Made by a program: the position numbers and the translations under genes. The notes beneath the pieces are model-generated. The model searched no databases. It was given only the letters and a program-made list of their open reading frames with translations, and was not told where the DNA came from. This document shows, piece after piece, positions 13,135 to 62,553 of a stretch of DNA of 64,000 bases (positions within the stretch are counted from its first letter, which is position 1; each line of letters begins with the position of its first letter). The stretch is from Mesostigma viride (lineage: Eukaryota > Streptophyta > Mesostigmatophyceae > Mesostigmatales > Mesostigmataceae): positions 5,154,504-5,218,503 of the forward strand of contig RPFO01000022.1 of the NCBI GenBank assembly GCA_009746045.1, in the 5' to 3' direction.

Positions 13135-13190
13135 TCTGTCAGAAGGATGCCGGGGTATAACGGGAGGGGGATCGAAACGAAAACAAAAAT

Positions 13191-25675: not shown

Positions 25676-26624
25676 GGTCAGACGGGCAGGCAGAGAACGA
25701 GGGGGAGAGGTGGGAACTAGCTCGCACGAAGTGCGCCACGTACGTCCGCGTAGTGGTGGAGAAGTCGCTCCCATGCGCTCGTGTGCGGCAGGTAAGGCTT
25801 GAGTCTGCTCCAGGGAATGTGGTGTTGCTTGCCCTGCAAGGACACAATCGCCTTGCGTACACATGCACGTCCTGACAGCCTCCACAGTGGCTGGGCCCTC
25901 CCATTGTCTCCTCGTATATATCCCTTCGAACCAGATTGGGAAACTTTTGCTGCAAATGCTGTGCCCATTCCTCTTCTACTTCAGGCAGTTAGTGGCCATG
26001 CTGCAATTGCCCTAGAGCTGCAGTGATAACACAATTTCGCGAAGGCACTGAAAGGAGCACACGGCGGTTTAGGCATGCAGAAATATGCAAAGCCCACACT
26101 AAACGGGAAGCATAAGAACCAAGAGCAGCCGCTCACCGTTCCGCCTCGCGGCTTGTTTAATTAATTCCTGCACAGCACGTTCCACCAAACCTTGCCCTTC
26201 ATGGTCTTGACGGCCCACTGTCCGGAGGTACTCAAACCCCGGCTTGCCCTCAAAGCATGCGAACTGCCTGTCCATTTGCAATGACTTCTAGGAGAGAAAG
26301 ACGCAGAGAGAATGTCAATAGCCTCCGCCAAATCTTCCGCTGACTGACGTACCCCGCAGCAGGATTACTGCTACATTATGAGCATACCTATCTATGGCTA
26401 TGAAATAAGGGAGAAGCGTCCAGAACAGTACGTCGCCTACAATTTGTCCTTAATTTGCATGCGGAGGGATGCTTAGCATGGTGGCGGGGAATTAAGCTTT
26501 GGCCCAGTAGCCTCACACACAGGACAATGCGCATAGCAATCTCGACATGCTGCCAAAAGCTCTGCCCCCACCCAATGCATTTGCAAATTTGTACGCATTG
26601 GTGCCATGGCCAAATGGTGTGTCG
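25676..26624. other. No supported gene
   Basis: Several 80-110 codon frames overlap on both strands, none with a recognisable domain. Ordinary-looking intergenic or intronic DNA before the GGGA tract. Confidence 0.35.
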
Positions 26625-32128: not shown

Positions 32129-34703
32129 GTAGGATAAGGGCTGGAGTATCTCTCGGTAGGTCCCGTTGTGCAGCTATGAGAGTAGAGCAGTACAGCAAGG
32201 ACGTAAGGGCTGGAGTATCTCTCGGTAGGTCCCGTTGTGCAGCTATGAGAGTAGAGCAGTACAGCAAGGACGTAAGGGCTGGAGTATCTCTCGGTAGGCC
32301 CCGTTGTGCAACTATGAGAGTAGAGCAGTACAGCAAGGACGTAAGGGCTGGAGTATCTCTCGGTAGGCCCCGTTGTGCAACTATGAGAGTAGAGCAGTAC
32401 AGCAAGGACGTAAGGGCTGGAGTATCTCTCGGTAGGTCCCGTTGTGCAGCTATGAGAGTAGTACAGCAAGGACGTAAGGGCTGGAGTATCTCTCGGTAGG
32501 TCCCATTGTGCAGCTATGAGAGTAGAGCAGTACAGCAAGGACGTAAGGGCTGGAGTATCTCTCGGTAGGTCCCGTTGTGCAGCTATGAGAGTAGAGCAGT
32601 ACAGCAAGGACGTAAGGGCTGGAGTATCTCTCGGTAGGCCCCGTTGTGCAGCTATGAGAGTAGAGCAGTACAGCAAGGACGTAAGGGCTGGAGTATCTCT
32701 CGGTAGGTCCCGTTGTGCAGCTATGAGAGTAGAGCAGTACAGCAAGGACGTAAGGGCTGGAGTATCTCTCGGTAGGTCCCGTTGTGCAGCTATGAGAGTA
32801 GAGCAGTACAGCAAGGACGTAAGGGCTGGAGTATCTCTCGGTAGGTCCCGTTGTGCAGCTATGAGAGTAGAGCAGTACAGCAAGGACGTAAGGGCTGGAG
32901 TATCTCTCGGTAGGTCCCGTTGTGCAACTATGAGAGTAGAGCAGTACAGCAAGGACGTAAGGGCTGGAGTATCTCTCGGTAGGTCCCGTTGTGCAGCTAT
33001 GAGAGTAGAGCAGTACAGCAAGGACGTAAGGGCTGGAGTATCTCTCGGTAGGTCCCGTTGTGCAACTATGAGAGTAGAGCAGTACAGCAAGGACGTAAGG
33101 GCTGGAGTATCTCTCGGTAGGTCCCGTTGTGCAGCTATGAGAGTAGAGCAGTACAGCAAGGACGTAAGGGCTGGAGTATCTCTCGGTAGGTCCCATTGTG
33201 CAGCTATGAGAGTAGAGCAGTACAGCAAGGACGTAAGGGCTGGAGTATCTCTCGGTAGGCCCCGTTGTGCAGCTATGAGAGTAGAGCAGTACAGCAAGGA
33301 CGTAAGGGCTGGAGTATCTCTCGGTAGGTCCCGTTGTGCAGCTATGAGAGTAGAGCAGTACAGCAAGGACGTAAGGGCTGGAGTATCTCTCGGTAGGTCC
33401 CGTTGTGCAGCTATGAGAGTAGAGCAGTACAGCAAGGACGTAAGGGCTGGAGTATCTCTCGGTAGGTCCCGTTGTGCAGCTATGAGAGTAGAGCAGTACA
33501 GCAAGGACGTAAGGGCTGGAGTATCTCTCGGTAGGTCCCGTTGTGCAACTATGAGAGTAGAGCAGTACAGCAAGGACGTAAGGGCTGGAGTATCTCTCGG
33601 TAGGTCCCGTTGTGCAACTATGAGAGTAGAGCAGTACAGCAAGGACGTAAGGGCTGGAGTATCTCTCGGTAGGTCCCGTTGTGCAACTATGAGAGTAGAG
33701 CAGTACAGCAAGGACGTAAGGGCTGGAGTATCTCTCGGTAGGTCCCGTTGTGCAGCTATGAGAGTAGAGCAGTACAGCAAGGACGTAAGGGCTGGAGTAT
33801 CTCTCGGTAGGCCCCGTTGTGCAACTATGAGAGTAGAGCAGTACAGCAAGGACGTAAGGGCTGGAGTATCTCTCGGTAGGCCCCGTTGTGCAACTATGAG
33901 AGTAGAGCAGTACAGCAAGGACGTAAGGGCTGGAGTATCTCTCGGTAGGTCCCGTTGTGCAGCTATGAGAGTAGTACAGCAAGGACGTAAGGGCTGGAGT
34001 ATCTCTCGGTAGGTCCCATTGTGCAGCTATGAGAGTAGAGCAGTACAGCAAGGACGTAAGGGCTGGAGTATCTCTCGGTAGGCCCCGTTGTGCAGCTATG
34101 AGAGTAGAGCAGTACAGCAAGGACGTAAGGGCTGGAGTATCTCTCGGTAGGTCCCGTTGTGCAGCTATGAGAGTAGAGCAGTACAGCAAGGACGTAAGGG
34201 CTGGAGTATCTCTCGGTAGGTCCCGTTGTGCAGCTATGAGAGTAGAGCAGTACAGCAAGGACGTAAGGGCTGGAGTATCTCTCGGTAGGTCCCGTTGTGC
34301 AGCTATGAGAGTAGAGCAGTACAGCAAGGACGTAAGGGCTGGAGTATCTCTCGGTAGGTCCCGTTGTGCAACTATGAGAGTAGAGCAGTACAGCAAGGAC
34401 GTAAGGGCTGGAGTATCTCTCGGTAGGTCCCGTTGTGCAGCTATGAGAGTAGAGCAGTACAGCAAGGACGTAAGGGCTGGAGTATCTCTCGGTAGGTCCC
34501 GTTGTGCAACTATGAGAGTAGAGCAGTACAGCAAGGACGTAAGGGCTGGAGTATCTCTCGGTAGGTCCCGTTGTGCAGCTATGAGAGTAGAGCAGTACAG
34601 CAAGGACGTAAGGGCTGGAGTATCTCTCGGTAGGTCCCGTTGTGCAGCTATGAGAGTAGAGCAGTACAGCAAGGACGTAAGGGCTGGACTTTTTCTCGGT
34701 AAG
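32129..34703. repeat. 69-bp minisatellite, about 37 units
   Basis: Units of 69 bp start GTAAGGGCTGGAGTATCTCT, continue with CGGTAGGT(C/G)CCGTTGTGCA and end near GTACAGCAAGGAC. Unit variants are few (GGTCCC or GGCCCC; GCAGC or GCAAC) and two units lack six bases (near 32460 and 33972). As 69 is a multiple of three, frames stay open on both strands (23-residue repeats); these are not evidence of protein. Each unit contains CTCGGTAGGT, a copy of the splice donor at the end of the preceding open frame. Confidence 0.97.
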
Positions 34704-35713
34704 CCCGGCCAACGCGGTTGCATCATGAGGCTTTAAGAGTGTTATAGCAAGGGCGTGAGGGCTGGGCGTTTCTCGGTAGGTGGTATTTCACGTAGGTGGC
34801 TCGAGGAAAGTTTTTGTGAGGCAATAGAGATGTAGCATAGCGAGGGGGTGAGGGCTGGACGATAGGCCTCGGTGCTTTTTATCTTGCATTTATGGCATGG
34901 GGCATCCTTGATTGGGATGTTGTGCTAAGTGCTACCGCTTGGCAATGCAGCCCCTATTCATATCATAGCAAGTGGTAATGCTTTGAAACGCAGCCCCTTT
35001 TTCCTTGACGTGGTTGACAGACTCGAGCATTCGAGGCATCCATGGGCATGGGCATCGGGGGGTAGAAGTTCCTTGATTGACGGTGTTTGATAGCACAAGC
35101 ACGGGACCTAGCGCTTGGCCAGGCAAACCCTATCAATAGAACGTGGTTGACAGACGAGAGCAATCCAGGCATACATGGGCATGGGCATCGGGGGCGTAGA
35201 AGGTGTGTGTCAGCACGGGCACGGGACCTAGCGGTTGGCCAGGCACCCCGTCTTGTCGCAAGGACCTTGCTGTCACAAGGGCAGACTAGCAGGACGCCAC
35301 CCGCTCCTAGGGGTGGCCGTGCGACGTGGTAGAGAGCATTTGGGGCAACCATCCGCTCATTTGGTGCAACCGTTGGCATGGGCTTTGGGGTGTGGAAGGA
35401 GTTCCCTTGGGATGAGCATTAGGGAGTTGGAGGGGAGGCATTCCACGTGGAGTAAGGGGCGTGACAGGAGTTTGCTTAGCGTGGACGTTGGCGCGCGGGA
35501 GTCTGGGCACCAAGGCCTCAGATGGCAACCTTCTTCCGATAATGTTGCGTGCCGCTTTGGGGAGTCATGTGGGTGGTTCATGCCCTCGTGGTGCATGGCG
35601 GCATGGCAAGAGTGCACGTCATGGGTTGGTGGCGCGGAGGCCAGGGTGGATGGGAAATGCTAGCTAATTAGTAGCTATGTGGAACGCTATCTACTGGAGT
35701 AGCCTTGCAAGGT
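34704..35713. other. No gene; diverged tandem duplication of about 130 bp
   Basis: Words ACGTGGTTGACAGAC, CATGGGCATGGGCATCGGGG and GCACGGGACCTAGCG recur at 35010-35115 and 35141-35235. At 34735-34870 further diverged pieces of the 69-bp unit occur (GAGGGCTGG, CTCGGTAGGTGG). Long overlapping frames here lack recognisable domains. Confidence 0.5.
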
Positions 35714-39705: not shown

Positions 39706-39867
39706 AGCATACGGGGCATAGCCTCCTTGCCGCGTAGCGGGATGGTGCTTGCAGGTGGGTGTGAAATATCTTTGTAAGTAAGGTGGCTTACCACAAGCCG
39801 GCTTCATGGGATATTGATGGTAGGAGCTCTCACAAGGTCAAGCCTCGTCTGGCTGTCCCATCGATGT

Positions 39868-41791
39868 CATGGTCACTATACTATAGTGTCCAGCCTGTGC
39901 TGCTTGTCTCATGGATACCATGGTCACTATACTATAGACTATAGTATCCAGCCTGTGCTGCTTGTCTCATGGATACCATGGTCACTGTACTATAGACTAT
40001 AGTGTCCAGCCTGTGCTGCTTGTCTCATGGATACCATGGTCAATGTACTATAGACTATAGTGTCCAGCCTGTGCTGCTTGTCTCATGGATACCATGGTCA
40101 CTACACTGTAGTGGTGTCCAGCCTGTGCTGCTTGTCTCATGGATACCATGGTCAATGTACTATAGACTATAGTATCCAGCCTGTGCTGCTTGTCTCATGG
40201 ATACCATGGTCACTGTACTATAGACTATAGTGTCCAGCCTGTGCTGCTTGTCTCATGGATACCATGGTCACTACACTATAGTGGTGTCCAGCCTGTGCTG
40301 CTTGTCTCATGGATACCATGGTCAATGTACTATAGACTATAGTGTCCAGCCTGTGCTGCTTGTCTCATGGATACCATGGTCACTGTACTATAGACTATAG
40401 TGTCCAGCCTGTGCTGCTTGTCTCATGGATACCATGGTCACTATACTATAGTGGTGTCCAGCCTGTGCTGCTTGTCTCATGGATACCATGGTCACTGTAC
40501 TATAGACTATAGTGTCCAGCCTGTGCTGCTTGTCTCATGGATACCATGGTCACTATACTATAGTGTCCAGCCTGTGCTGCTTGTCTCATGGATACCATGG
40601 TCACTGTACTATAGACTATAGTATCCAGCCTGTGCTGCTTGTCTCATGGATACCATGGTCACTGTACTATAGACTATAGTATCCAGCTGGTGCTGCTTGT
40701 CTCATGGATACCATGGTCACTATACTATAGTGGTGTCCAGCCTGTGCTGCTTGTCTCATGGATACCATGGTCAATGTACTATAGACTATAGTGTCCAGCC
40801 TGTGCTGCTTGTCTCATGGATACCATGGTCACTGTACTATAGACTATAGTGTCCAGCCTGTGCTGCTTGTCTCATGGATACCATGGTCACTACACTGTAG
40901 TGGTGTCCAGCCTGTGCTGCTTGTCTCATGGATACCATGGTCAATGTACTATAGACTATAGTGTCCAGCCTGTGCTGCTTGTCTCATGGATACCATGGTC
41001 ACTACACTGTAGTGGTGTCCAGCCTGTGCTGCTTGTCTCATGGATACCATGGTCAATGTACTATAGACTATAGTGTCCAGCCTGTGCTGCTTGTCTCATG
41101 GATACCATGGTCACTGTACTATAGACTATAGTATCCAGCCTGTGCTGCTTGTCTCATGGATACCATGGTCACTGTACTATAGACTATAGTATCCAGCCTG
41201 TGCTGCTTGTCTCATGGATACCATGGTCACTGTACTATAGACTATAGTGTCCAGCCTGTGCTGCTTGTCTCATGGATACCATGGTCACTACACTGTAGTG
41301 GTGTCCAGCCTGTGCTGCTTGTCTCATGGATACCATGGTCAATGTACTATAGACTATAGTATCCAGCCTGTGCTGCTTGTCTCATGGATACCATGGTCAC
41401 TGTACTATAGACTATAGTGTCCAGCCTGTGCTGCTTGTCTCATGGATACCATGGTCAATGTACTATAGACTATAGTATCCAGCCTGTGCTGCTTGTCTCA
41501 TGGATACCATGGTCACTGTACTATAGACTATAGTGTCCAGCCTGTGCTGCTTGTCTCATGGATACCATGGTCACTGTACTATAGACTATAGTGTCCAGCC
41601 TGTGCTGCTTGTCTCATGGATACCATGGTCACTACACTGTAGTGGTGTCCAGCCTGTGCTGCTTGTCTCATGGATACCATGGTCACTGTACTATAGACTA
41701 TAGTGTCCAGCCTGTGCTGCTTGTCTCATGGATACCATGGTCACTGTACTATAGGCTATAGTATCCAGCCTGTGCTGCTTGTCTCATGGAG
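39868..41791. repeat. 52-56-bp minisatellite, about 35 units, rich in dyads
   Basis: Units carry GTCCAGCCTGTGCTGCTTGT, CTCATGGATACCATGGTCA and then either CTGTACTATAGACTATA or CTACACTGTAGTG. The variable end is always self-complementary (CTATAGACTATAG or CTACACTGTAG), and CCATGG is a further palindrome. Variants are interspersed rather than in blocks. It lies in the long intron before the exon at 44264. Confidence 0.95.
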
Positions 41792-42812: not shown

Positions 42813-42941
42813 ACATGGCAGAGTCGCTGGCATCCGGCCCCCTTTCACTTCTGCGTGAATGCCGGCTGAAACGCGAGCGTGTGTGCATTTGGACGCGGCA
42901 CACGCGCGGCGTGCGGGGCAGCTGTACTGCCTTCATCGTGG

Positions 42942-43706
42942 CGGTGGATAAGCACATGAACATGGTGAGGGGGGCGGTGGACAGGCACATGAACATGGTG
43001 AGGGGGGTGGTGGACAGGCACATGAACATGGTGAGGGGGGTGGTGGACAGGCACATGAACATGGTGAGGGTGGTGGTGGACAGGCACATGAACATGGTGA
43101 GGGGGGTGGTGGACAGGCACATGAACATGGTGAGGGGGGCGGTGGACAGGCGATGAACATGGTGAGGGGGGTGGTGGACAGGCACATGAACATGGTGAGG
43201 GGGGCGGTGGACAGGCACATGAACATGGTGAGGGGGTGGTGGACAGGCACATGAACATGGTGAGGGTGGTGGTGGACAGGCACATGGTGAGGGGGGCGGT
43301 CGACAGGCACATGAACATGGTGAGGGGGGCGGTGGACAGGCACATGAACATGGTGAGGGGGGTGGTGGACAGGCACATGAACATGGTGAGGGGGGCGGTG
43401 GACAGGCACATGGTGAGGGGGGCGGTGGACAGGCACATGAACATGGTGAGGGGGGTGGTGGACAGGCACATGAACATGGTGAGGGGGGCGGTGGACAGGC
43501 ACATGAACATGGTGAGGGGGGTGGTGGACAGGCACATGGTGAGGGGGGCGGTGGACAGGCACATGAACATGGTGAGGGGGGTGGTGGACAGGCACATGAA
43601 CATGGTGAGGGGGGTGGTGGACAGGCACATGGTGAGGGGGGCGGTGGACAGGCACATGAACATGGTGAGGGGGGCGGTGGACAGGCACATGAACATGGTG
43701 AGGGGA
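42942..43706. repeat. 33-bp minisatellite, about 23 units
   Basis: Unit GGTGGACAGGCACATGAACA followed by TGGTGAGGGGGG(C/T); shorter units lack the ACATGA part (for example 43274, 43410). Period-three lengths keep all frames open on both strands. Confidence 0.96.
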
Positions 43707-49616: not shown

Positions 49617-50107
49617 AGAATGTGCTACACTGAGACGTGACGGGCTCACACCCGGGCAGCCTCCTGGTTTGTCTGTAATATGGAGGCAGATGGTGCGCAA
49701 GGATAGATGGCAAGTAGTGATGAAGGAGACCACCCCCAAGTCTGTGGGGGCTCCGCGTGTGACCGCGTATGGCATTCATGGCGATTCGGGCCGCGGTGCC
49801 CATACCCCTGTCTGTAACTAGGACCTAGATAGTTTACACCATCCATTCCATCCCACCATGTTCCCCTCCCACTGAGGACTTATGCTCACGTGACGCAGTC
49901 ACGTGTCTACTAATTAATTAATTAATTAATTAATCCACGTGGAAAACACTTGCATTCATAGTATATATAGTAATTAGTAAGTAGTTTCATGGTATCAACA
50001 TGGCTCGCATGCAGTCAACCGCCATGACAACCATGGTTGGCTAAGCACATTTTATAGTGTTGTCACATCAACATAACAAGCGCATGCTCAAATAAACTAA
50101 GGGTGGC
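49617..50107. other. No gene; (TAAT)n run at 49909-49937
   Basis: Apart from the A/T tail-like run, which may be the end of another LINE fragment, nothing recognised. Confidence 0.35.
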
Positions 50108-50538
50108 AGTTAGGTTAATATTGTGCGGAAACCTTTTGCCACTCGGCTTCTAAGGTTCCGCACAATATTACCAGTGATAACCACTCGCAGGTACACTCCA
50201 GTTCATGCCGGCACAATACAATGCCTAACTAAAACCTGGCCTCGTGGAGGTGAGTGAAGGGCCGACAGTGAGCCACCCGCTTGGGGCCTGCTGAGCACGC
50301 ACTTGGGCGCCGGCGTGTCTCAAAGCGGATTCGAACCCCTGACCTCCAAGGTGCGCAGGTCTTAGTTAGGTAAATATTGGGCGGAGACCTTTTGCCACCT
50401 GCGGCAAAGGTTCCGCACAATATTTTACCGGAGTTAACCACTCTCCGGTACACTCAACTTGAGTGTACCGGAATGAACTTGAGTGAACCTTTGCCGCAGG
50501 TGGCAAAAGGTTTCCGCCCATGCAATATTTACCCAACT
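50108..50538. mobile_element. Composite palindromic element, locus II (431 bp), flanked by 5-bp duplication GTGGC
   Basis: GTGGC lies at 50103-50107 and 50539-50543. The left part (50108-50230) starts AGTTAGG and ends CCTAACT; the right part (50364-50538) starts AGTTAGGTAAATATT and ends AATATTTACCCAACT. Each folds into nested hairpins: a stem with TTGTGCGG/CCGCACAA type pairing enclosing ACCTTTTGCC, then a small hairpin with loop TAACCACT. Between them is a 133-bp unit (50231-50363) starting AAAAC and ending GTCTT, whose right end is a tRNA 3'-half on the minus strand. This is the simplest of the three loci. No protein frame. Confidence 0.8.
50316..50363 (-). other. tRNA 3'-half-like sequence (locus II)
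   Basis: The minus strand reads AAGACCTGCG, a variable-arm hairpin ACCT-TGG-AGGT, a T arm AGGGG-TTCGAAT-CCGCT (4 of 5 pairs) and the acceptor strand TTGAGACA. A long variable arm and anticodon AAG fit a Leu tRNA. A TGGCTCACTGTCGG word, similar to a tRNA A box, lies further along the unit, after the B box, but no GTCTCAA acceptor partner is present. Confidence 0.55.
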
Positions 50539-50543
50539 GTGGC

Positions 50544-51084: not shown

Positions 51085-53040
51085 GGTATAATCATTAATT
51101 AATTAGAACCATAACTCCGTTGGGAGTACATGTAGCACATATCCCTGAGAAGGGGCATATGGCTTTTTAATACATTCTGGGCTACTTCCTGCAAGGGTGG
51201 GAATGTAAGCGGCCCTTGCTCTAGGTGCACCAGGGCACCTGCACCCTCATAATCTTCACACTATGCCCAGCTAAGGGGGAGTATGTTATGTGGGGGAAGA
51301 TCATCATGGCTATACAAGAGCTAGGACATGGCTTCTCTACAGAGAGCATCTCTCTGCAGGGCATAGCATGGCTAAATTCTTAATGCAACATCCATGGGGG
51401 TCCCGTTATAGGCATGGCTTGGCTAGATTCTGTAGGCAACATCCATGGGGGCCATTATGGGCGCACATGTGCGTGGGCCACATGCTAGGCTAAGCCTTAC
51501 TAATCTACACTACTGGTATATATATTCCTAGTCTGAGGTGGCAGGAGGGGGGTGCCAGGGCTTGTGGTCAACGTGGATGACCGCCCCCCTCCAGTGTACC
51601 GGCTTCCCCCGTGCGCTCTGCCGGAGCTGGAGGTAGGTCGGCCATAGCTCGCGTCGCCGCTGTTGCTGGGCCAGGGTCAAGTCGTCGTCCAGCGTGCAGC
51701 GAGTCTCCGAGAGCTTCTTGCGGCATTTAAGGAACGACAGCTTGTCCGCCATGTACTTAAAGGTGAGGAGCACGGGTGCCGGGCCAGCCTTCCCCCGCGC
51801 GCGCACAGCCGACATGTCCAGCTCACCAGTGAGTAGCATGGGGGCAAAAATGTCGCGCTTAAATGCCGCAAGAAGGCTCGTGGAGGTCTCACCTGCTGGC
51901 TGGTCGAAGTGCTTGACGATGACATTGTGGCTGCGCCGGGCGATGTCGGCTTCCTCGCGAAGGTCGAGGGCTTGTTGCTTGAGTTGTGCCGAGATGGTGG
52001 AGGTGGTGGAGGTGGTGTGCTGCTTAAGCAAGTCCGCCCAGGTGGAGGGAGCATCGCCGGCCGAGCCAGCAGGCGCCGGCTGGGCGGCGATGTCCTTCAC
52101 CGCCTGGGCGGTGAGGCCGGCGGTGTCATGCAAGCTCTCAAGGGCGTTGGTTGGCGGTGGCTTGAAGGCGTTGGTTGAGGTCGAGGAGCTGGGCTTTGAT
52201 GTCGGCAGTGGAGGCGGAAATGGCAGTGGAGGTGGAGGCGGCGGCGGTGGAAATGTGAGGAAGTTCAGCAGTCAGCGTGCCGCCGATTGCTGCTATGTCG
52301 GCAGCAAGGGGGGTCACGTGCTGCTGAAAGGCTTCCGTGAGGATGGAGCGGAGGGTGGGGACGGAAAGGGATGGAGCCCAGATCTCGCCGTCAGAGCGCT
52401 GGAGAAGGGAGTTGAGGATGGCGTGCTGGAGATGGGGGCGGACGCAGCCGGACAGCTGGTAGATGTTGGCCCAGCGGCTGCCGGCCGGGTCGAGGAGGCG
52501 ATTGATGGAGTGGAGATGGAGGCACAGGTCGTAAAGCGAAGCGTAATCCCCGAAGAAGATGCAGCGCATAGCATCGGTCGGAGAAATGGTGGCCCAGTCG
52601 TAATCTGCGACCTTGAAAGGCCGGGGCCGAAAGCTCGGTTCCGGGGGGCGTGAAGACCCTCCTGTGTCGTCGGCTGGGCGGGTGCGCTTGGGGTCAGGCG
52701 ATGCAGATGGCGAGGCGTTAAGCCCGGGGGGTTGCTGGACGACCACCAGTGCAGGACTAGTGTCATCGCCGCCTGCCGGACCTGATGGCGAAGCTGCAGC
52801 CTGAGCTGCAGACGTATTTTCATTGCCGAGCGCAGCCGCCAGGCTGCGTTGCGTTGAGGCGCGTTTGTTCGCCATATGTTGCGTTTTAGATTCGGAAAAT
52901 TATATCAGCATGTGCGTCTTAGAAAGACGAAGCGATAGATAGTGATATTCACGGCTAAATTCGGTGCTCAAACGTGAAAGTTATGAGCTCCGACAGCCAT
53001 GGCTACCTCGTGGCCGGAATTTCGCGTGAGTTATGGATAT
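51085..53040 (-). mobile_element. ORF1-only LINE element, copy B (nearly full length)
   Basis: The right end (5' side) holds an untranslated region of about 150 bases, then the ORF1 start at 52875, the ORF1 stop at 51528, a 3' untranslated region of about 430 bases, the hairpin CTCCCAACGGAG (minus strand) and a TTAATTAATT tail. The 3' half aligns with copy A (16430-17812). No reverse transcriptase lies between ORF1 and the tail. The exact 5' end is not clear. Confidence 0.75.
51528..52875 (-). pseudogene. LINE ORF1-type protein, complete but for one frameshift
   Basis: The N-terminal frame (52875-52138) has a Ser/Ala/Pro-rich start, a basic patch (PDPKRTRPADD) and a folded-looking segment (FFGDYASLYDLCLHLHS and then INRLLDPAG) that is unique to this family as far as I can tell. 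It leads into a helical part (LDLNQRLQATAN). After one extra C near 52148 the second frame (to 51528) gives HDTAGLTAQAVKDIA, the RRM-like core (SHNVIVKHF, PAPVLLTFKYMADKLSFLK) and CTLDDDLTLAQQQRRRELW. Corrected length would be about 450 residues, longer than mammalian L1 ORF1p. No CCHC knuckle is present, unlike ORF1 of Jockey-type LINEs. Confidence 0.7.
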
Positions 53041-53158
53041 AGATAGGTATAATCATGGGAGGGTATAATTCATCAGTTCGGGGATGAATATGGGTCATTT
53101 GGTACCGGCAAAGTAGCCTACGTACTGGAGTTAGTCTCCATGCTTTGCTGCACACTAA

Positions 53159-53372
53159 AGTTATTATAAATAGTGACGGAACCTTTTTGCCACTTGGGCA
53201 ATTAGGTCCGTCACTATTTATCCGGCGTAAACCACTCGCCGGTATCTATTCCGCGTTAAGTTCACGTGAACGTGGCGCGGAATTGATACCGGCGAGTGGT
53301 TTACGCCGGATAAATAGTGACGGACCTAATTGCCCAAGTGGCAAAAAGGTTCCGTCACTATTTATAATAACT
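53159..53372. repeat. 214-bp near-perfect palindrome, copy 1 of 3
   Basis: Only the central 40 bases, around TTCACGTGAA, are imperfect. Each half contains a hairpin with stem AAATAGTGACGG/CCGTCACTATTT enclosing ACCTTTTTGCC, and a hairpin CCGGCG-TAAACCACT-CGCCGG. Identical to copy 2; copy 3 is the same sequence inverted, as shown by its asymmetric centre. Confidence 0.97.
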
Positions 53373-53444
53373 AAAACGTCGTAGTGTGGGGGCCGATATC
53401 TATCGTACCACTGATGCCTACTGCAGTACCGAATCTCGCCTTAA

Positions 53445-54097
53445 GGGGACTCGTCACCAAAACACCAAAAAATCAATAAAAATTCAAAACTCGCATTAAA
53501 CCTATGCAAACAGTGCCCAAAAGTGATTGGGGACACAAAGTAGCATTTATGACGATTTGTCGTGCACTTACTAGGGGTATGTCGCCTGGCATGTGGCTAA
53601 AAATAGCACAAGACGCTAAACCGTTCTTGCCGCCCAACGGTCAATAGGAGCATCTGTTTGACCTGCCCATACATTCCAAACGAGTTCCCCCTCTCCTCGA
53701 CCGTTTGAGCTACTAACATGGGTCGGCGGGGCAGGTTTGTGAGAGTTATTAATTTTCCCGCCAAAATACGGTCTTTTTTCGCGGGAAAATTAATAACTCT
53801 CACAAACCTGACCCGCTGAACCATGTTAGTAACTCAAACGGTCGAGGAGAGGGGGAACTTGTTTGGAATGTATGGGCAGGTCAATCAGATGCTCCTATTG
53901 ACCGTGGCGTGGCAAAAACGGTTTAGCGTCTTGTGCTATTTTTAGCCAAATGCCGGGGGTAATACCCCAAGTAAGTGCACGACAAATCGTCATAAATGCT
54001 ACTTTGGGTCCCCAAACCCATTTGGGCATTGTTCGCATAGGTTTAATGTGAGTTTTGAATTTTTATTGATTTTTTGGTGTTTTGGTGACGAGTCCCC
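53445..54097. mobile_element. 653-bp foldback element inserted at TTAA
   Basis: It begins GGGGACTCGTCACC and ends GGTGACGAGTCCCC, with TTAA directly on both sides (53441-53444, 54098-54101). The two halves are inverted copies of about 310 bp with scattered differences, around a centre near 53770. The other copy of the host unit has the uninterrupted site (ATCGTTAAGGCGAG at 54547), so this is a true insertion with TTAA duplication, the target rule of piggyBac-type transposons. No transposase frame. Confidence 0.88.
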
Positions 54098-54177
54098 TTA
54101 ACGATATTCCAACCGGGCATATTTTCCCTTCTGGCACTTTCGTTTGGCCTTCTGGTATCCGGTATTCGGAAATACCC

Positions 54178-54218
54178 GTGTCACCACAGGGATTCGAACC
54201 CCCGACTTACGAGGTCTT
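54178..54218 (-). other. tRNA 3'-half-like sequence (locus III, left copy)
   Basis: Minus strand: AAGACCTCGTAAGTC, then a T arm with loop TTCGAAT and B box GGTTCGAATCC, then acceptor-like TGGTGACA. The variable region is short here, unlike loci I and II. A perfect inverted copy lies at 54433-54473. Confidence 0.55.
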
Positions 54219-54432
54219 AGTTATTATAAATAGTGACGGAACCTTTTTGCCACTTGGGCAATTAGGTCCGTCACTATTTATCCGGCGTAAACCACTCGCC
54301 GGTATCTATTCCGCGTTAAGTTCACGTGAACGTGGCGCGGAATTGATACCGGCGAGTGGTTTACGCCGGATAAATAGTGACGGACCTAATTGCCCAAGTG
54401 GCAAAAAGGTTCCGTCACTATTTATAATAACT
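54219..54432. repeat. 214-bp palindrome, copy 2 of 3 (centre of locus III)
   Basis: Flanked by GTCTT on the left and AAGAC on the right, so the two tRNA 3'-halves face it symmetrically. Confidence 0.97.
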
Positions 54433-54473
54433 AAGACCTCGTAAGTCGGGGGTTCGAATCCCTGTGGTGACAC
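54433..54473 (+). other. tRNA 3'-half-like sequence (locus III, right copy)
   Basis: Exact inverted copy of 54178-54218. It would be transcribed away from the central palindrome. Confidence 0.55.
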
Positions 54474-54621
54474 GGGTATTTCCGAATACCGGATACCAGA
54501 AGGCCAAACGAAAGTGCCAGAAGGGAAAATATGCCCGGTTGGAATATCGTTAAGGCGAGATTCGGTACTGCACTAGGCATCAGTGGTACGATAGATATCG
54601 GCCCCCACACTACGACGTTTT

Positions 54622-54835
54622 AGTTATTATAAATAGTGACGGAACCTTTTTGCCACTTGGGCAATTAGGTCCGTCACTATTTATCCGGCGTAAACCACTC
54701 GCCGGTATCAATTCCGCGCCACGTTCACGTGAACTTAACGCGGAATAGATACCGGCGAGTGGTTTACGCCGGATAAATAGTGACGGACCTAATTGCCCAA
54801 GTGGCAAAAAGGTTCCGTCACTATTTATAATAACT
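54622..54835. repeat. 214-bp palindrome, copy 3 of 3
   Basis: Its asymmetric centre is the reverse complement of that in copies 1 and 2, as expected for the far arm of a large inverted repeat. Confidence 0.97.
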
Positions 54836-54954
54836 ACTAAGTATCAAAGGCAGTGTGAATACAACGTATGAATCAGCCTTGTTGTAAACCTACGTTGGTA
54901 TGAGAATATAAATACCATGTGGGCTATTCAGCCGGATAGGACGGCTAGTCGAGT

Positions 54955-57845
54955 CACATATATATTCATTGAGAATGATAGATTACGGAGGTGAGATAGG
55001 CATGCAACATAAGGAAAAACCCGATAACTGGGAGAATAACCCTAAAGAAATTAATAGTAATCTGACACAGACATCCAAGGATCACGCCAGCGGCACAAGG
55101 TACAACTAACTAGACATCACAAAACTACACGCAGCAACAGCGCTGCTGGCCCACCATGCAGGCCTGGAAGGGATCTAGACCGCATGGGTCGCGACAAAGT
55201 CGGCCCGGGTGCGGCGGAATAACACATCAGCCACGGTGCGAGTGAGGGCGAGTGACAGGCGCTGCCGCCAATACGAGGACCACGTGCGGGCCGACCACGG
55301 GGCGGTCTGACCCTCGAGGTCGAGGCGGTCTTCACGGCGCTGGCAGCACTCGTGGAAAAACTCCGCTGTCTTGGGGCCCATGGCCCCGAACTCCTCAAGG
55401 ACAAAGGGGATGACCCGGTGGGGCCCCACATTGCCGTAGGAGGCAAACTTGTCGCGCTCAGCCACAGTGGCAGCAGCGCCGGCATCCACAGCCGCCCGGA
55501 GGATGTGGCGACCGGAAAGCGGCCGAGCCACGGAGACATCGATGAGCAGGTGGCAACCCTGCCCGTCGTAGTCAAGCACGGTAATGTCGGGGCGGTGGTT
55601 GGGTGAGTAGAGGGCGGCCCCATCCGCGTCCTCGCACTTGATGGTGGAGTGGGGAAAGACCGACCGAACCATGGCACACACCACCCGGAGGAGAGCGGTA
55701 TGGAGATAGAGGAACCAGTTCTGGTTCTGCTGGCCACCCATGCACGCGATGTAGTGCGTCCCAGTAGTATCCAGAGCAAGCCCGCAGCTGCCGCAGGACG
55801 CACCCGCCGTGATGAGAGGTTGCGGGGCAAAGAGCTGGTGGCGGAGAGCGATGGCGTAAAGGGCCGGAACCAGCGTGAACAAAGGGCTCATGGGGAGGGC
55901 GCGCAGGAATGCGGACCCCACGCTCCCCTCAAGGGAAACGGAGTGAAGCCAAGCCTTCCCCTGATCGTTCAAGCTCGCGTGCAGACCCATCCAGTCGGCA
56001 CAGTGTAGTATACCCGCGTAGGTCTTTTGTTGTTTTTCATGAACGCAGGCAGGGAAGACACTAGGACTGACGACAGTAGACACGCCGGGCGTGCCCCGGG
56101 GCAGGCGACGGTGGACGGCCTGAGCGGGGCGGACGAGGTCGCAAGCCTGCTGGATCCCGAGGAAAGAATCCTGCACAGCCTGCACAAAGGGGAAGGGGGA
56201 TGGGGTGACCAAGTCGGGAATGGCGCTGACGGCGCTGGGGACCAACCGGCGGATCTCCGCCCAGGCCTGAGCAACAGAGCCAAGGAAGGCGGCGGGGGCG
56301 AGGCGGGCGGCGCGGGTGAGCCCACACCCGCCCATGCGGCAGGGGAGGGTGGCCAAGCGCATGGAGTGAGCTGGCAGGCTAGGGCCGGGGAGGAGCACCT
56401 GCAAGGCGGCCTGAATGCGCTCGTCATGGCCTTCCGCGGCAAGCCGCACCAAGTGGGGGGAGCGCCACGGAGCCAGTGAACCACCCGCGGGTGGGCGCAA
56501 AACCACAGGAGGAGCCCTTTGGTCTGGGGGTCCTTGAGGCGCGCCCAAGTCTCGAGGACATGGGTGCGCTGTTCCACGGTGGCCCGGAGCTCCTCTGCGA
56601 CGTAGTCAGGGTCACCCACAGGGACGCCTAGGCACGAGAAACCACGCGCCCGCGCCAATGCCCCCGGGATAGCCGCGGGGAAGCCAGAGCAGTCCCCCTG
56701 GGGCGAAAAGACTGCACACTTGGGGAGGGTGAGCCGAAGGTTGATGGCCGCCATGGCCACTTCAAGGGCAGCCAGGGCGGCAACCACAGCGTCGGCCGGG
56801 CCAAGGGCATGGATATCGTCCATATAGGCGAGGAGCACGACATCCGGGTGCGCAGCGTGGACACCTTGGAGAGCCTTGTGCAGCGGGGCAGACAGGTAAA
56901 AGGGGCCGAGGGGGTCACCTTGCTGGGTTCCCGTGCGGGAAGCGATGTCGGCGAACGTCCCATCCTCCATGAGGAAGGAGAGTTGAGTGGGGTCGCCGTA
57001 GCAGGCTGCTGTCCACGCAAGAAGGTCAGGGAACGCCTCGCCGACGGCCTCAAAGATGCAGCGCCACATGGGTCGGATGCGTCTCGAGGTAGGCCTGAAC
57101 TGTGTGCACGATGATGTCGCTGCCCCCTTTGGTGGCGACGCCAAGCTGGGCCGCGACGGACTCCTCAGTATCACTCCGGTTGGGGCAGAAGTAGGCGCGA
57201 AACTCGGGAGCCTTTTGGCGACAAATGACCTTACTCACCAGCTTGCGTAGGACCTCGCCGCAAGCAATGGGACGAACGCGGCCAGCAGGCGGGAGGACGT
57301 CGTCTTTCAGGAGGGCAATGAGGCGTGCCCCAGCCAGCCAAGGGCGCGCCTCGGGGGCCAGGGACCCCGCGGCCAAGTCGGCGGCAGCCTCAAAGAGTGC
57401 GGTCGCCCCGCCATGGCCCGCCATCACGGAGAGGTGCTCGTAGCGCCAGCCTGAGGGGCCGGTGGAGGAGGCGTTCGGCAGATCCTTCAGCACAGCCGTG
57501 AAGATGTCCAGGTCCAGGACAATAGGCGGGGGCGGGGGGGTGGCCGGGGCGGGCACCGCAAAGGCCGGTTCGTCGGGGTGAAGGTCGCGCAAAGCCTGCA
57601 GGGTCGGGGGAGTGGAGGGAGCCAACGCGGTCAGTTCAAGCTTTTGCATGGCCCGGCTCAATTCACCTACCTTCACCAACCGCATGACGTCAGCTTCCAC
57701 CCGGGCAAAGGAGGCGGCCCCCGACACCCGGGTGGAGGCCGGAGGCTGCAGCGCCCACAGCCCTTCCCAATCCCCGAGGAGGAACCGCCGGCAGCGAGCG
57801 ATGACCGCACCCTGTTATACCTTTTGGCTATACATCACATATATA
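54955..57845 (-). mobile_element. R2-like non-LTR retrotransposon (restriction-like endonuclease type), copy 1
   Basis: It shares coding and 3' untranslated sequence with copy 2 at about 97% by eye. Its 3' end (GAATATATATGTGA, minus strand) and its 5' end (at 57840) both lie in short TA runs. It stands head-to-head with copy 2. Confidence 0.88.
55175..57727 (-). pseudogene. Reverse transcriptase plus restriction-like endonuclease polyprotein, copy 1, broken
   Basis: The N-terminal part (57727-57050) has TGPSGWRYEHLSVM and VRPIACGEVLRKL, conserved blocks before the RT core. Compared with copy 2, 44 bases are missing at about 57055, removing the motif A Asp (VDCHNAF) and shifting the frame. 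The RT continues in a second frame with GTQQGDPLGPFYL and AYMDDIHAL. A second shift at about 56455 is due to a G6 run where copy 2 has C7. The third frame then runs through the zinc knuckle and endonuclease to the stop at 55175. Loss of a catalytic Asp makes this copy inactive. Confidence 0.9.
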
Positions 57846-58051
57846 TACCCGCCTTTGCGGTGCCCGCCCCGGCCACCCCCCCGCCCCCGCCTATTGTCCT
57901 GGACCTGGACATCTTCACGGCTGTGCTGAAGGATCTGCCGAACGCCTCCTCCACCGGCCCCTCAGGCTGGCGCTACGAGCACCTCTCCGTGATGGCGGGC
58001 CATGGCGGGGCGACCGCACTCTTTGAGGCTGCCGCCGACTTGGCCGCGGGG

Positions 58052-59348
58052 CAGTGTACAGCCATACGCAATACGCAATCATACGGGGCCCATGGGTATG
58101 GTGTATAATACGCCATACGGGGTATAATACGCAAATCATACGGGGACTCTTGAAAATGCTGTTTTTTGCATGGTTCAGGGGGTTCTTCAACATTCTGACC
58201 AATCAGGCATGTTTTTTTTGTGTTCTTGCAACACCACTTGCCTTTATTTAACACATCATCACATAATATTGCCGTTGCCGTCGCTGCATGCCTACAAATA
58301 CAAGCATTGTACATCTGTTGTTATTAATAATGTCTGTAAATAGCACACGGTCAGTCGGCCAACTTGCCAAAAGTAATAAGACATTGTGCCAGAAACAGAC
58401 ATCTTGCCTACTCGTGGTAGGCCACCATGCAATATTGATCTACATGAAGCAAGAATCCATACGGGCTGCCAACAATGTGGCTAGCGTGCAGGATACCATG
58501 CATGCCAGCAACCCGACCCAGCTTCCCTAAACCATTAACACATATGGTACGGTGGCTGGCTAGCAGCAGCCTGCATGGCTAAATAAGGCATTTATGTGCA
58601 TCGCGAGTCACACCAAATACCCCGCAGCCTGCGACGTAATGCCTCCGGCGGCCTCTTGCACTCGCTCACTCTTGCCTCCTTCGCGTACGTAGCGCCCATG
58701 ATATGGCGGGTGCTAGCCTTGCTCGGGTGGTAGAACCCGAGAATTTTGCATCCAAAAGTGTGCACGTCACTTAGCTTGTAGTTACCTGTCGGCTGCCATT
58801 TCTTGTTGAGAGTCTGTTCTTTCACGATGTGTGTCCAGACAGTCTCGAATACGGCCTGCATCTCGTCGGCCCAGTCATCATCGTGTTCCATAGACCCACA
58901 CCATCACCGTCGCTAGCCATGGTGCCTGGATGTCAATTGTGCTACGATTAAATGTTAGGTGCCAGATGCGCGCCCTTGTTGGCAGACAACATAACTTCGT
59001 CACCTAATTTCCTCGTCCTTCGTCTCCTAGACCCTAGTCCGACACGCAGCAATCTGCAGCAATGCACGTACAGTCGTACATGCACGGCCAGCTTGGCACC
59101 TGGATGTGGTTTATTTGTCGCGGAGTTCCAGGTCGCCTAGATACAGTCTAGTTCCGGCTTCACGTGCCGTCCAAAATGATGCCAGAAGCTACTTCGAACG
59201 CGGTTCATACGCAAAAAATACGCAAAAAATACGCAATACGCAAAAAATACGCAGTGCGTATTTTTTTTCCCATTTTCATACGGAAATCTTGCGTATGGCG
59301 TATAATACGCGCCATACGGCGTATTATACGCCGTATGGCTGTTCACTG
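58052..59348. mobile_element. Non-autonomous hAT-like DNA transposon, 1297 bp, 8-bp duplication CCGCGGGG
   Basis: Terminal inverted repeats CAGTGTACAGCCATACG and (read inward from the right) CAGTGAACAGCCATACG. CCGCGGGG occurs at 58044-58051 and 59349-59356 but once in copy 1 of the host element, giving an empty site. An 8-bp duplication and a C-A-R-N-G-type start define hAT. Both ends carry subterminal ATACGC and CATACGG repeats, denser on the right (59210-59340). The only frame of note (58891-58592, minus, 99 codons) lacks transposase motifs, so mobility would need another copy. Confidence 0.85.
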
Positions 59349-59486
59349 CCGCGGGGTCCCTGGCCCCCGCGGCGCGCCCTTGGCTGGCTGGGGCACGCCT
59401 CATTGCCCTCCTGAAAAACGACGTCCCCCGGCCTGCTGGCCGCGTTCGTCCCATGCATTGCTTGCGGCGAGGTCCTACGCAAGCTG

Positions 59487-61595
59487 GTGAGTAAGGTCAT
59501 TTGTCGCCAAAAGGCCCCCGAGTTTCGCGCCTACTTCTGCCCCAACCGGAGTGATACTGAGGAGTCCGTCGCGGCCCAGCTTGGCGTCGCCACCAAAGGG
59601 GGCAGCGACATCATCGTGCACACAGTTCAGGCCTACCTCGAGACGCATCCGACCCATGTGGCGCTGAAGGTGGATTGCCACAATGCGTTCAATGCTGTCA
59701 CCAAGGCTAGCATCTTTGAGGCCGTCGGCGAGGCGTTCCCTGACCTTCTTGCGTGGACAGCAGCCTGCTACGGCGAACCCACTCAACTCTCCTTCCTCAT
59801 GGAGGATGGGACGTTCGCCGACATCGCTTCCCGCACGGGAACCCAGCAAGGTGACCCCCTCGGCCCCTTTTACCTGTCTGCCCCGCTGCACAAGGCTCTC
59901 CAAGGTGTCCACGCTGCGCACCCGGATGTCGTGCTCCTCGCCTATATGGACGATATCCATGCCCTTGGCCCGGCCGACGCTGTGGTTGCCGCCCTGGCTG
60001 CCCTTGAAGTGGCCATGGCGGCCATCAACCTTCGGCTCACCCTCCCCAAGTGTGCAGTCTTTTCGCCCCAGGGGGACTGCTCTGGCTTCCCCGCGGCTAT
60101 CCCGGGGGCATTGGCGCGGGCGCGTGGTTTCTCGTGCCTGGGCGTCCCTGTGGGTGACCCTGACTACGTCGAAGAGGAGCTCCGGGCCACCGTGGAACAG
60201 CGCACCCATGTCCTCGAGACTTGGGCGCGCCTCAAGGACCCCCAGACCAAAGGGCTCCTCCTGTGGTTTTGCGCCCACCCGCGGGTGGTTCACTGGCTCC
60301 GTGGCGCTCCCCCCCACTTGGTGCGGCTTGCCGCGGAAGGCCATGACGAGCGCATTCAGGCCGCCTTGCAGGTGCTCCTCCCCGGCCCTAGCCTGCCAGC
60401 TCACTCCATGCGCTTGGCCACCCTCCCCTGCCGCATGGGCGGGTGTGGGCTCACCCGCGCCGCCCGCCTCGCCCCCGCCGCCTTCCTTGGCTCTGTTGCT
60501 CAGGCCTGGGCGGAGATCCGCCGGTTGGTCCCCAGCGCCGTCAGCGCCATTCCCGACTTGGTCACCCCATCCCCCTTCCCCTTTGTGCAGGCTGTGCAGG
60601 ATTCTTACCTCGGGATCCAGCAGGCTTGCGACCTCGTCCGCCCCGCTCAGGCCGTCCACCGTCGCCTGCCCCGGGGCACGCCCGGCGTGTCCACTGTCGT
60701 CAGTCCTAGTGTCTTCCCTGCCTGCGTTCATGAAAAACAACAAAAGACCTACGCGGGTATACTACACTGTGCCGACTGGATGGGTCTGCATGCGAGCTTG
60801 AACGATCAGGGGAAGGCTTGGCTTCACTCCGTTTCCCTTGAGGGGAGCGTGGGGTCCGCATTCCTGCGCGCCCTCCCCATGAGCCCTTTGTTCACACTGG
60901 TTCCGGCCCTTTACGCCATCGCTCTCCGCCACCAGCTCTTTGCCCCGCAACCTCTCATCACGGCGGGTGCGTCCTGCGGCAGCTGCGGGCTTGCTCTGGA
61001 TACTACTGGGACGCACTACATCGCGTGCATGGGTGGCCAGCAGAACCAGAACTGGTTCCTCTATCTCCATACCGCTCTCCTCCGGGTGGTGTGTGCCATG
61101 GTTCGGTCGGTCTTTCCCCACTCCACCATCAAGTGCGAGGACGCGGATGGGGCCGCCCTCTACTCACCCAACCACCGCCCCGACATTACCGTGCTTGACT
61201 ACGACGGGCAGGGTTGCCACCTGCTCATCGATGTCTCCGTGGCTCGGCCGCTTTCCGGTCGCCACATCCTCCGGGCGGCTGTGGATGCCGGCGCTGCTGC
61301 CGCTGTGGCTGAGCGCGACAAGTTTGCCTCCTACGGCAATGTGGGGCCCCACCGGGTCATCCCCTTTGTCCTTGAGGAGTTCGGGGCCATGGGCCCCAAG
61401 ACAGCGGAGTTTTTCCACGAGTGCTGCCAGCGCCGTGAAGACCGCCTCGACCTCGAGGGTCAGACCGCCCCGTGGTCGGCCCGCACGTGGTCCTCGTATT
61501 GGCGGCAGCGCCTGTCACTCGCCCTCACTCGCACCGTGGCTGATGTGTTATTCCGCCGCACCCGGGCTGACTTTGTCGCGACCCATGCGGTCTAG
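59487..61595 (+). CDS. Reverse transcriptase plus CCHC knuckle plus restriction-like endonuclease, long intact frame
   Basis: This 702-codon frame is the best-preserved copy. RT motifs are VDCHNAFNAV at about 62-71 (motif A), GTQQGDPLGP at about 117 (motif B) and AYMDDIHAL at about 152 (motif C). At about 497 a knuckle CGSCG...H...C (C-x2-C-x9-H-x3-C) precedes RPDITVLD and LLIDVSVARP at about 563-585; the spacing PD-x14-D is that of the restriction-like endonuclease in R2, CRE and related site-specific non-LTR elements. Product: RT and nicking endonuclease acting in target-primed reverse transcription. The ATG at 59487 is internal to the original protein: upstream coding is separated by the hAT-like element and shifted by a 4-bp GCAT insertion near 59455. 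Confidence 0.92.
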   Translation: MSKVICRQKAPEFRAYFCPNRSDTEESVAAQLGVATKGGSDIIVHTVQAYLETHPTHVALKVDCHNAFNAVTKASIFEAVGEAFPDLLAWTAACYGEPTQLSFLMEDGTFADIASRTGTQQGDPLGPFYLSAPLHKALQGVHAAHPDVVLLAYMDDIHALGPADAVVAALAALEVAMAAINLRLTLPKCAVFSPQGDCSGFPAAIPGALARARGFSCLGVPVGDPDYVEEELRATVEQRTHVLETWARLKDPQTKGLLLWFCAHPRVVHWLRGAPPHLVRLAAEGHDERIQAALQVLLPGPSLPAHSMRLATLPCRMGGCGLTRAARLAPAAFLGSVAQAWAEIRRLVPSAVSAIPDLVTPSPFPFVQAVQDSYLGIQQACDLVRPAQAVHRRLPRGTPGVSTVVSPSVFPACVHEKQQKTYAGILHCADWMGLHASLNDQGKAWLHSVSLEGSVGSAFLRALPMSPLFTLVPALYAIALRHQLFAPQPLITAGASCGSCGLALDTTGTHYIACMGGQQNQNWFLYLHTALLRVVCAMVRSVFPHSTIKCEDADGAALYSPNHRPDITVLDYDGQGCHLLIDVSVARPLSGRHILRAAVDAGAAAAVAERDKFASYGNVGPHRVIPFVLEEFGAMGPKTAEFFHECCQRREDRLDLEGQTAPWSARTWSSYWRQRLSLALTRTVADVLFRRTRADFVATHAV

Positions 61596-61815
61596 ATCCC
61601 TTCCAGGCCTGCATGGTGGGCCGGCAGCGCTGTTGCTGCGTGTAGTTTTGTGATGTATACATAGTTAGTTGTACCTTGTGCCGCTGGCGTGATCCTTGGA
61701 TGTCTGTGTCAGATTACTATTAATTTCTTCAGGGTTATTCTCCCAGTTATCGGGTTTTTCCTTATGTTGCATGCCTATCTCACCTCCGTAATCTATCATT
61801 CTCAATGAATATATA

Positions 61816-62553
61816 TATTATAAAAATATAATTACTTACAGCAGAGTGAAATCACTCAAACCAAAGCAAACGCCCAGCTATAAACCTATATACAGAGCCA
61901 TGTCAAAGCTCTATACTACCGATAAGACCAATGGAAACTCCTAACAGGAGGAACCTAATAGCCCTGCTGCACCGCAAAATCAGCCCGCGTACGGCGGAGC
62001 ATGATGTCAGCCATGGCCCGAGTAAGCGCCACCGACAAGCGCTGACGCCAATATGACGTCCAGGTCCGCGCCGACCATGGGGCCCGCTGGCCCTCCAGGT
62101 CCAGCCGGTCCTCCCGGAGCCGGCAACACTCCTTGAAGAAGGCGGAGGTCAGGGGCCCCATGGCCCCAAACTCCTCCAGGACAAAGGGCACCACACGATG
62201 GTGCCCGATGTCGCCGTAGGCCAGGAGCTTGGCCCGCTCCGCCCGGTCCGCCGTGTAACCTGCCGTGAGGGAGGCCCCAGCCACGTGGCTAACAGCCAAG
62301 GGCCGCGCCACCGAAACGTCAATAAGCAGATGCCGGCCAGGCGGCCACCCCCCTCAAAGTCCAGCACCACGATGTCAGGCCGGTGGTTGGGGGAATAGAA
62401 GGCAGCGCTATCCGCATCCTCGGACCGGATGTTCGCGCGGGGGAAAACCGACCGAACCATGGCGAGCACCACCGTCAGGAGGACAGTGTGCAAATACAAA
62501 TACCAATTCTGATTCTGTTGCCCCCCCATGCAGGCAAGGTAGTAGTGAGTCAC
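61816..62553 (-). mobile_element. R2-like non-LTR retrotransposon, copy 3 (second subfamily), 5'-truncated
   Basis: It meets copy 2 tail-to-tail in the TATATATATTATA run at about 61808-61822 and meets copy 4 head-to-head at CACATATATATG. It contains only the C-terminal 200 codons and a 3' untranslated region of about 130 bases unrelated to that of copies 1 and 2. Confidence 0.85.
61955..62553 (-). pseudogene. C-terminal (endonuclease) fragment of the R2-like protein, second subfamily
   Basis: Reading minus, YYLACMGGQQNQNWYLYLH, SPNHRPDIVVLDFEGGG and, after a shift near 62345, ARPLAVSHVAGAS and VVPFVLEEFGAMGP follow the endonuclease domain of copy 2 at roughly 70% identity. Ends ADFAVQQGY. 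Truncation removes RT, and the shift falls between the two endonuclease acidic residues. Confidence 0.87.

Follow-up and report, generated by a model that had tools for sequence, protein, structure and literature searches.

The 431-bp locus at positions 50108-50538 of the window (the whole 64,000-nt stretch of Mesostigma viride DNA that was analyzed) raises the question of which kind of mobile element could be built of two hairpins around a short internal unit, and of how such an element might spread. The original prediction had grouped this locus, hereafter locus II, with two others at 21612-22546 (locus I) and 53159-54835 (locus III), on the basis of an AGTTA start, an AACT end and flanking 5-bp repeats. 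These features were borne out at all three loci, where the target duplications are exact direct repeats of CACCC in locus I (21607-21611 and 22547-22551), GTGGC in locus II (50103-50107 and 50539-50543) and ACTAA in locus III (53154-53158 and 54836-54840), and where among repeat lengths of 2-12 only 5 fits each locus. Locus II is, as predicted, the simplest form, being the sole monomer of the three, in which a terminal palindrome (H), an internal unit (U) and a second terminal palindrome follow one another with lengths of 123, 133 and 175 nt. Its H1 is a decayed palindrome (50108-50230, plus strand), U is read on the minus strand and runs from AAAAC to GTCTT on the plus strand (50231-50363), and H2 closes the element (50364-50538, plus strand).

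The predicted order of hairpin, unit and hairpin holds for locus II, whereas loci I and III each represent a mirror dimer (H-U-H-U'-H) with three palindromes and two mirrored internal units that share the middle palindrome. Locus III spans 1677 bp, or 1020 bp without an insert, and carries three 214-nt palindromes: H1 (53159-53372, plus strand) has eight arm-asymmetric positions forming four mismatched pairs, the middle H2 (54219-54432, plus strand) repeats H1 without change in the direct orientation, and H3 (54622-54835, minus strand) is the exact reverse complement of H1. Its first internal unit (53373-54218, minus strand; B box at 54190-54201, minus strand) measures 189 nt once the 657-nt insert is removed, as does its mirror copy U2 (54433-54621, plus strand, ending GTTTT; B box at 54450-54461, plus strand), and the two are identical at 188 positions. 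The insert itself (53445-54101) consists of another, near-perfect foldback element (arms of 326 nt including TTAA, 93% alike) plus one TTAA copy, for which the mirrored U2 provides the empty site. In locus I the outer palindromes H1 (21612-21689, plus strand) and H3 (22469-22546, plus strand) are perfect, identical and 78 nt long; between them lie a U1 of 490 nt (21690-22179, minus strand; B box at 22141-22152, minus strand), an H2 cut short just beyond its center with 44 of 78 nt left (22180-22223, plus strand), and a mirrored U' in which the B-box end is missing (22224-22468, plus strand). When the flanks of locus I are joined, a minus-strand frame of 192 codons (179 + 13) is open; a gene broken at this site is neither proved nor disproved, because the coding-like frame downstream lies in another phase.

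The prediction that the elements carry no transposase held for the window loci, as the ORF listing contains no ORF of at least 150 aa within any of the three. Pfam searches with 30 of the 60 listed window ORFs detected a DNA primase subunit and proteins of retroelement type (reverse transcriptases, a gag and an aspartic protease), but nothing tied to the elements. Among the best 120 of 1847 matches, the primase large subunit is closest to sequences of streptophyte algae and land plants, Klebsormidium nitens matching with 57% over 87% and the top entry, Brassica cretica, with 53% over 63%. Several further features were recorded in the window. Adjoining locus III, two inverted copies with reverse transcriptase ORFs (54958-57062 and 59706-61816) are 99.2% identical and enclose nested inverted pieces (57059-57569, 57847-58051 and 59348-59666), which form another mirror arrangement. 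Long minisatellites occupy 32135-34707, 26624-28294, 39837-41790 and 42938-43705, the first of which has units of about 69 bases and is overlapped by a 758-codon ORF, and an unidentified repeat is present in two diverged copies (16428-17733 and 51093-52352; 86% then 75% alike).

The three loci had been described as three families of one structural class. This view needs revision for loci II and III, which are related because their diverged palindromes are homologous (66-71%), and stands for locus I, which has no visible sequence relation to the others and has in common with them only the ends, the edge motif, the B box and the layout. The edge motif TAACTAARAC occurs nine times in the window and all nine occurrences lie at H/U edges of the loci, against a chance mean of 0.13 and none of 100 shuffles reaching nine. 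The predicted recurrence of the same ends and motif in families without other similarity was confirmed. Similarly, GGATTCGAACCC occurs four times in the window with one mismatch allowed (all four exact), each time inside a locus, with a chance mean of 0.24. Within U, the motif GGGTTCGAATCC, which contains the Pol III B box consensus, is oriented from the GTCTT edge inward and the opposite edge ends in GTTTT; the B box is present at all three loci, in locus II at 50327-50338 on the minus strand. In an alignment of ten units chosen for their readable edges, comprising four families (a, b, c, which is locus III, and d, which is locus I), TAACTAARAC is present in all ten and GGTTYGAATCC in nine, the remaining one (L010) having GGTTCAAATCC; changed edges are found in other copies (L016 and L033).

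The internal unit had also been called a tRNA half. What stands of this is a Pol III B box flanked by T-arm-like sequence, to which a by-eye reading of the alignment letters adds, for subfamilies a and b, an apparent variable arm resembling that of class II; a full tRNA fold was not recovered. ARAGORN found no tRNA at the elements, and the predicted RNA folds of the three regions were no better than those of shuffled sequences (z -0.33, -0.02 and -0.56). At the Rfam gathering threshold the whole window gave only three tRNA-Val genes, which are the tandem tRNA-Val (AAC) genes at 12947-13261, each with a TTTT run at most 10 nt downstream. At loose thresholds locus III matched mascRNA (21.7 bits), tRNA (17.4) and Vault (16.3), all below the cut-offs, and the best scores of loci II and I (16.9 and 13.5 bits) were to unrelated families. 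A 7-mer in the H arm is complementary to the stretch after the T arm with a joint P of 0.004, and singly with 0.011 in locus III, 0.18 in locus II and 0.41 in locus I. The cloverleaf was accordingly rejected, with an empty ARAGORN result, weak sub-threshold hits, folds like those of shuffles and a pairing that stands out only in locus III; we use the term B box plus T-arm instead of half tRNA because ARAGORN was empty and folding was no better than in shuffles. An A-box-like 11-mer lies in H, 34 nt upstream of the edge, matching at 11 of 11 positions in locus III and 10 of 11 in locus II (TGGCAAAAGGT in the H2 arm, 50387-50397 on the minus strand, position derived from the offset of 34), with none clear in locus I; full 11/11 matches occur at 24 of 127,978 window positions. 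The proposed Pol III function rests on motifs, and locus I lacks a clear A box and has a TTTTT run early on.

Further copies were sought in the genome (439,911,974 bases in 2243 contigs) with locus II as query, which cannot reach sequence-unrelated families such as that of locus I, and at least 118 matches were obtained (40 scored of 1088 candidates). We took 38 stretches, representing every match cluster except the window's own, and looked in them mainly for 5-bp duplications, whose presence in other copies had been predicted. The prediction was upheld in part. Exact repeats flank AGTT/AACT ends in 10 of the 38 stretches (L013 CTCGG, L015 GGTGG, L020 CATAC, L027 TAGGC, L028 AAATG, L032 TCTCC, L035 CGTGC, L036 GTGGG, L038 ACTGT and L039 GAGGC), and an eleventh element, whose halves lie in the stretches L040 and L041, is bounded on its outer sides by GGGTC; two stretches (L010 and L011) match in four of five bases, and 24 show no 5-bp repeat, the terminal palindrome being incomplete in most of these 24. 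The halves of the eleventh element are separated by an LTR element of 35,251 bases that interrupts the middle H. This giant element (L047-L050, about 35.25 kb on G000:C224), located in the middle palindrome of the dimer, is rich in tandem repeats and has 667-base LTRs that are 99.1% alike with TG...CA ends.

A strict scan was added because the looser search had tried several end pairs per stretch; it required AGTT...AACT ends that match each other in 15 or more of 20 bases and are flanked by an exact 5-bp repeat. It returned eight matches in 292,788 bases, made up of the window and the fetched stretches, most of which had been selected for holding relatives; three of the eight are loci I, II and III, and the same sequence scanned with 40 control end motifs yielded a mean of 0.075 and a maximum of 2. 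In the 40 kb downstream of the window the strict scan came up empty and the edge motif did not occur, and exact pattern scans of viral contigs and prokaryote genomes gave zero matches. A candidate at 724-953 with AGGCG repeats was judged a chance match, lying within a retroelement ORF and showing a short end match only. Another relative by its ends is a 395-nt AGTTAG...CTAACT element in L027 (2473-2867), which has a GCTTG duplication and lacks the edge motif and the B box. In addition, L029, L030 and L031 hold four near-identical H-U-H copies within a CACCC/ACAC-rich short-repeat array on two contigs, for which no 5-bp duplication was found.

Three forms of the element were seen, each with examples between 5-bp repeats, namely solo H, the monomer H-U-H and the mirror dimer H-U-H-U'-H. 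H-only stretches number seven (L032 and L034-L039), of which five have exact repeats and two, L034 and the half palindrome L037, have none; they resemble solo LTRs, or else H moves alone. Beside the solo H of L034 lies a 129-nt AGTT...AACT candidate (2277-2405) between GCAGG repeats, with 14 of 20 matching end bases, which is perhaps due to chance. Mirror dimers were recognized seven times (I, III, L013, L015, L022, L028 and L040/L041), with the B-box end inside in all seven and outside in none, and one of them, L022, shows no 5-bp repeat. Pairs in the same direction were non-contiguous (L016, and L031 with two copies 3.6 kb apart). In L028 subfamilies a and b are joined via a shortened, chimeric middle H, and its outer H are not mirror images because this dimer is mixed. 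In both locus I and L015 the middle H breaks off past its center and continues into U' at an interior position, with two matching bases at the join in locus I and three beside a mismatch in L015; such truncated dimers could be later deletions.

The orientation of the palindromes was scored in 14 pairs of H1 and H2 around one U. Among the six pairs that differ by at least 20 score points, a threshold chosen after the scores were known, the direct orientation is better in five (II, L011, L027, L029 and III; 198 of 206 positions identical in L011) and the inverted one in L026, which has H of two subfamilies; the other eight pairs, differing by less than 20 points, divide into four direct and four inverted. 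In dimers H1 and H3 are inverted in four of five comparisons, in some of them by a narrow margin; only the mixed dimer L028 departs from this. In a five-copy alignment both arms of one H share a private variant in L035 (C at 58), L036 (G at 58) and L038 (T at 89), which suggests that one arm served as the source of the other. Such sharing is not the general pattern: differences confined to one arm number one more in L035 and two in the right H of L041, and in L039, outside the alignment, the G at 58 is present in the left arm only.

The single H arm can itself be folded, as DNA, into smaller hairpins, with z scores of -10.1 in locus III, -6.0 and -7.5 in locus II and -3.8 in locus I. When locus II is compared with locus III, the stems vary on both sides and conservation is seen in the loop parts, TTTTGCCAC and AACCACT. 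The fifth pair of the small hairpin is C-G in locus III, A-T in H2 of locus II and T-G in H1 of locus II, and standard pairs make up 6/6, 6/6 and 5/6 positions, respectively; in the larger hairpin, by hand alignment, they make up 15/15 in locus III, 16/16 in H1 of locus II and 15/16 in H2 of locus II. The comparison of these three arms suggests that the folded form of H matters.

We read the element, tentatively and at somewhat less than an even chance, as a small element whose terminal repeats are long palindromes and which moves via a self-priming single-stranded DNA copy, in the manner of a miniature LTR retroelement. A strand would be made whose 3' end is the H at the B-box end, and its normal outcome would be the linear duplex H-U-H; where the terminal palindrome folds first, it would prime itself, and copying of U and the far H would give a mirror dimer with an unchanged middle H. 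The complete folded palindrome is proposed as the primer because the middle H of locus III keeps the asymmetric positions of H1 and its H3 is the exact reverse complement of H1; a broken end mirrored at the center of H would leave a perfect middle palindrome, which that of locus III is not. The priming 3' end is placed on the B-box side because all seven dimers have one polarity. Truncated and mixed dimers would result where the 3' end primes at a match further inside or uses a different copy as template. An integrase acting in trans would then join the AGTTA/TAACT ends with a 5-bp stagger, and solo H would arise by recombination between two H or from an H moving alone. The strand would most likely be cDNA, the B box driving Pol III transcription of U that terminates at GTTTT beside H. 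An RNA template is favored because a transcript starting at the B-box side puts the cDNA 3' end there, and direct terminal repeats are the product of LTR replication; a strand-specific DNA mechanism fits the single polarity equally well. A Pol III primer encoded by the element, with a 3' UUUU ending exactly at the U/H edge, stays an idea because it would lie at the opposite end from dimer formation. Against the self-priming reading stand the 24 of 38 stretches without a repeat, the dimer L022 included, the even split of the eight closer H pairs, the inverted pair of L026, the arm variants that are not shared, and the fact that no TG...CA ends, tRNA primer site or polypurine tract were found; the reverse transcriptase, integrase or other partner is hypothetical, none being linked to the element.

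The same forms could be produced by DNA alone. In a rolling-hairpin replicon of parvoviral type, which we consider unlikely, hairpin transfer on palindromic telomeres would give mirror concatemers, of which H-bounded pieces or a lone H would be integrated. Fixed 5-bp duplications are not known from parvoviral integration, and such a replicon predicts both dimer polarities, where seven of seven dimers have one. It also predicts a random, flip and flop orientation of H; of the 14 pairs scored above, six are informative and five of these are direct. It does account for the solo and monomeric forms, for dimers whose units have one palindrome in common and for the partial homogenization of the arms, and the smaller hairpins folded from the H arms, with the z scores given above, are as it would have them; priming from a 3' hairpin and flip-flop palindromes are described in the available text of PMC12297876.

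A further reading, which we hold improbable, makes H the mobile unit of a cut-and-paste foldback or MITE-like element that uses a DDE or Polinton-type integrase, H-U-H being a composite and the dimers hairpin-induced inverted duplications formed in the chromosome before excision. Exact repeats around solo H in five of seven stretches and the 395-nt L027 element between GCTTG repeats, devoid of edge motif and B box, agree with it, as do the duplications of Polinton-like viruses, given as 5-6 bp and typically 6 bp in the accessible part of PMC12220804. A DDE-type cut, suggested by the 5-bp stagger, is an inference, and cleavage of the target may be the work of a DDE integrase, whether of Polinton type or another; nevertheless, the inner flanks of H in the four aligned families are inverted AARAC where random target would be expected, and the imperfect middle H of locus III and the single dimer polarity likewise weigh against this reading. 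Lastly, we disfavor as highly improbable a true tRNA-derived SINE whose copies lie by chance between hairpins. The B box of the four aligned families (9 of 10 units), the variable arm seemingly present in a and b and the GTTTT at the far edge would suit a SINE, an element with Pol III promoter boxes A and B; yet SINEs have target duplications of variable length, where ours are 5 bp at all three loci with the other lengths of 2-12 excluded there, the palindromes and AGTTA/AACT ends belong to the unit, and there is no cloverleaf.

The element also has to be placed among known systems. Foldback elements and palindromic MITEs resemble the element in being non-coding with long inverted or palindromic ends; they differ in that our internal unit has conserved edges and a B box and the H pairs are direct in five of six judgeable cases. 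Mirror dimers of parvoviruses share one palindrome, and this trait is present here, terminal palindromes occurring together with mirror dimers that share one of them. The likeness extends to the terminal imperfect palindromes and 3'-hairpin self-priming of homotelomeric parvoviruses, as covered in the consulted sections of PMC12297876 and PMC7352801; in contrast, the element has neither a Rep nor a capsid gene, and has 5-bp duplications and one dimer polarity. Retrozymes are likewise non-autonomous LTR elements with a structured RNA element, but they have a hammerhead ribozyme, a standard primer site and polypurine tract, and 4-bp duplications (PMC4918200, in part). Fungal GalEa Copia elements, with a Conserved Hairpin Site, are LTR elements without a primer binding site that have a hairpin at the LTR/internal edge, although theirs is a 9-bp palindromic motif with a partner in a Copia element, and palindromic LTRs are not mentioned in the portion of PMC5445492 available.

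The closest likeness is to TRIMs, whose terminal direct repeats of 100-250 nt enclose a small non-coding center within less than 1000 bp and of which one similar element without a clear primer site has been published (both from the accessible portion of PMC6934838). The element resembles them in its size, 431 bp in locus II, in terminal repeats that mostly measure 100-250 nt, in a short center that lacks a long ORF, in the 5-bp duplication and in the occurrence of solo repeats; the size and repeat limits fit II, L010 and L011, the H of locus I having only 78 nt and locus III exceeding 1000 bp, and the direct orientation is clear in five of the six informative pairs out of 14. TRIMs have TG...CA ends and a target duplication of about 5 bp, and their differences from the element are its palindromic terminal repeats and the mirror dimers it forms. 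TG...CA ends are absent, all three loci having AG...CT; TGG occurs within the first 9 nt at one of the six edges (left of locus II, offset 6), and the best primer-site matches to the two tRNA 3' ends tried were 6/12 to iMet and 9/18 to the host tRNA-Val. The longest purine run is 5 within 31 nt inside any of the six edges. We did not file the element as a TRIM because it lacks TG...CA ends, a recognizable primer site and a polypurine tract.

The original prediction of a new class is not established in the sense of a wholly new one, since size, terminal repeats, solo repeats and the 5-bp duplication resemble TRIMs, and its remark that it knew no named family with this layout agrees with the listings of the open literature searched. 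In those listings, which do not extend to Repbase and most subscription papers, no element combining palindromic terminal repeats, an internal B box and mirror dimers came up, so that its novelty is provisional. It is conceivable, though we regard it as doubtful, that a separate eukaryotic retroelement order exists in this streptophyte alga, in which the palindromes would serve as both primer and integration end, a Pol III transcript of U would be the template or primer, and mirror dimers would be a regular product.

Genomes do not, as a rule, keep palindromes of about 200 bp stably, and this lineage uses them as terminal repeats despite that instability. If self-priming is true, it would provide a start of the second strand without a tRNA primer or polypurine tract, and would unite principles of LTR elements and of parvoviral telomeres. 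Mirror dimers would in addition be a ready source of double-stranded RNA and a cause of chromosome breaks.
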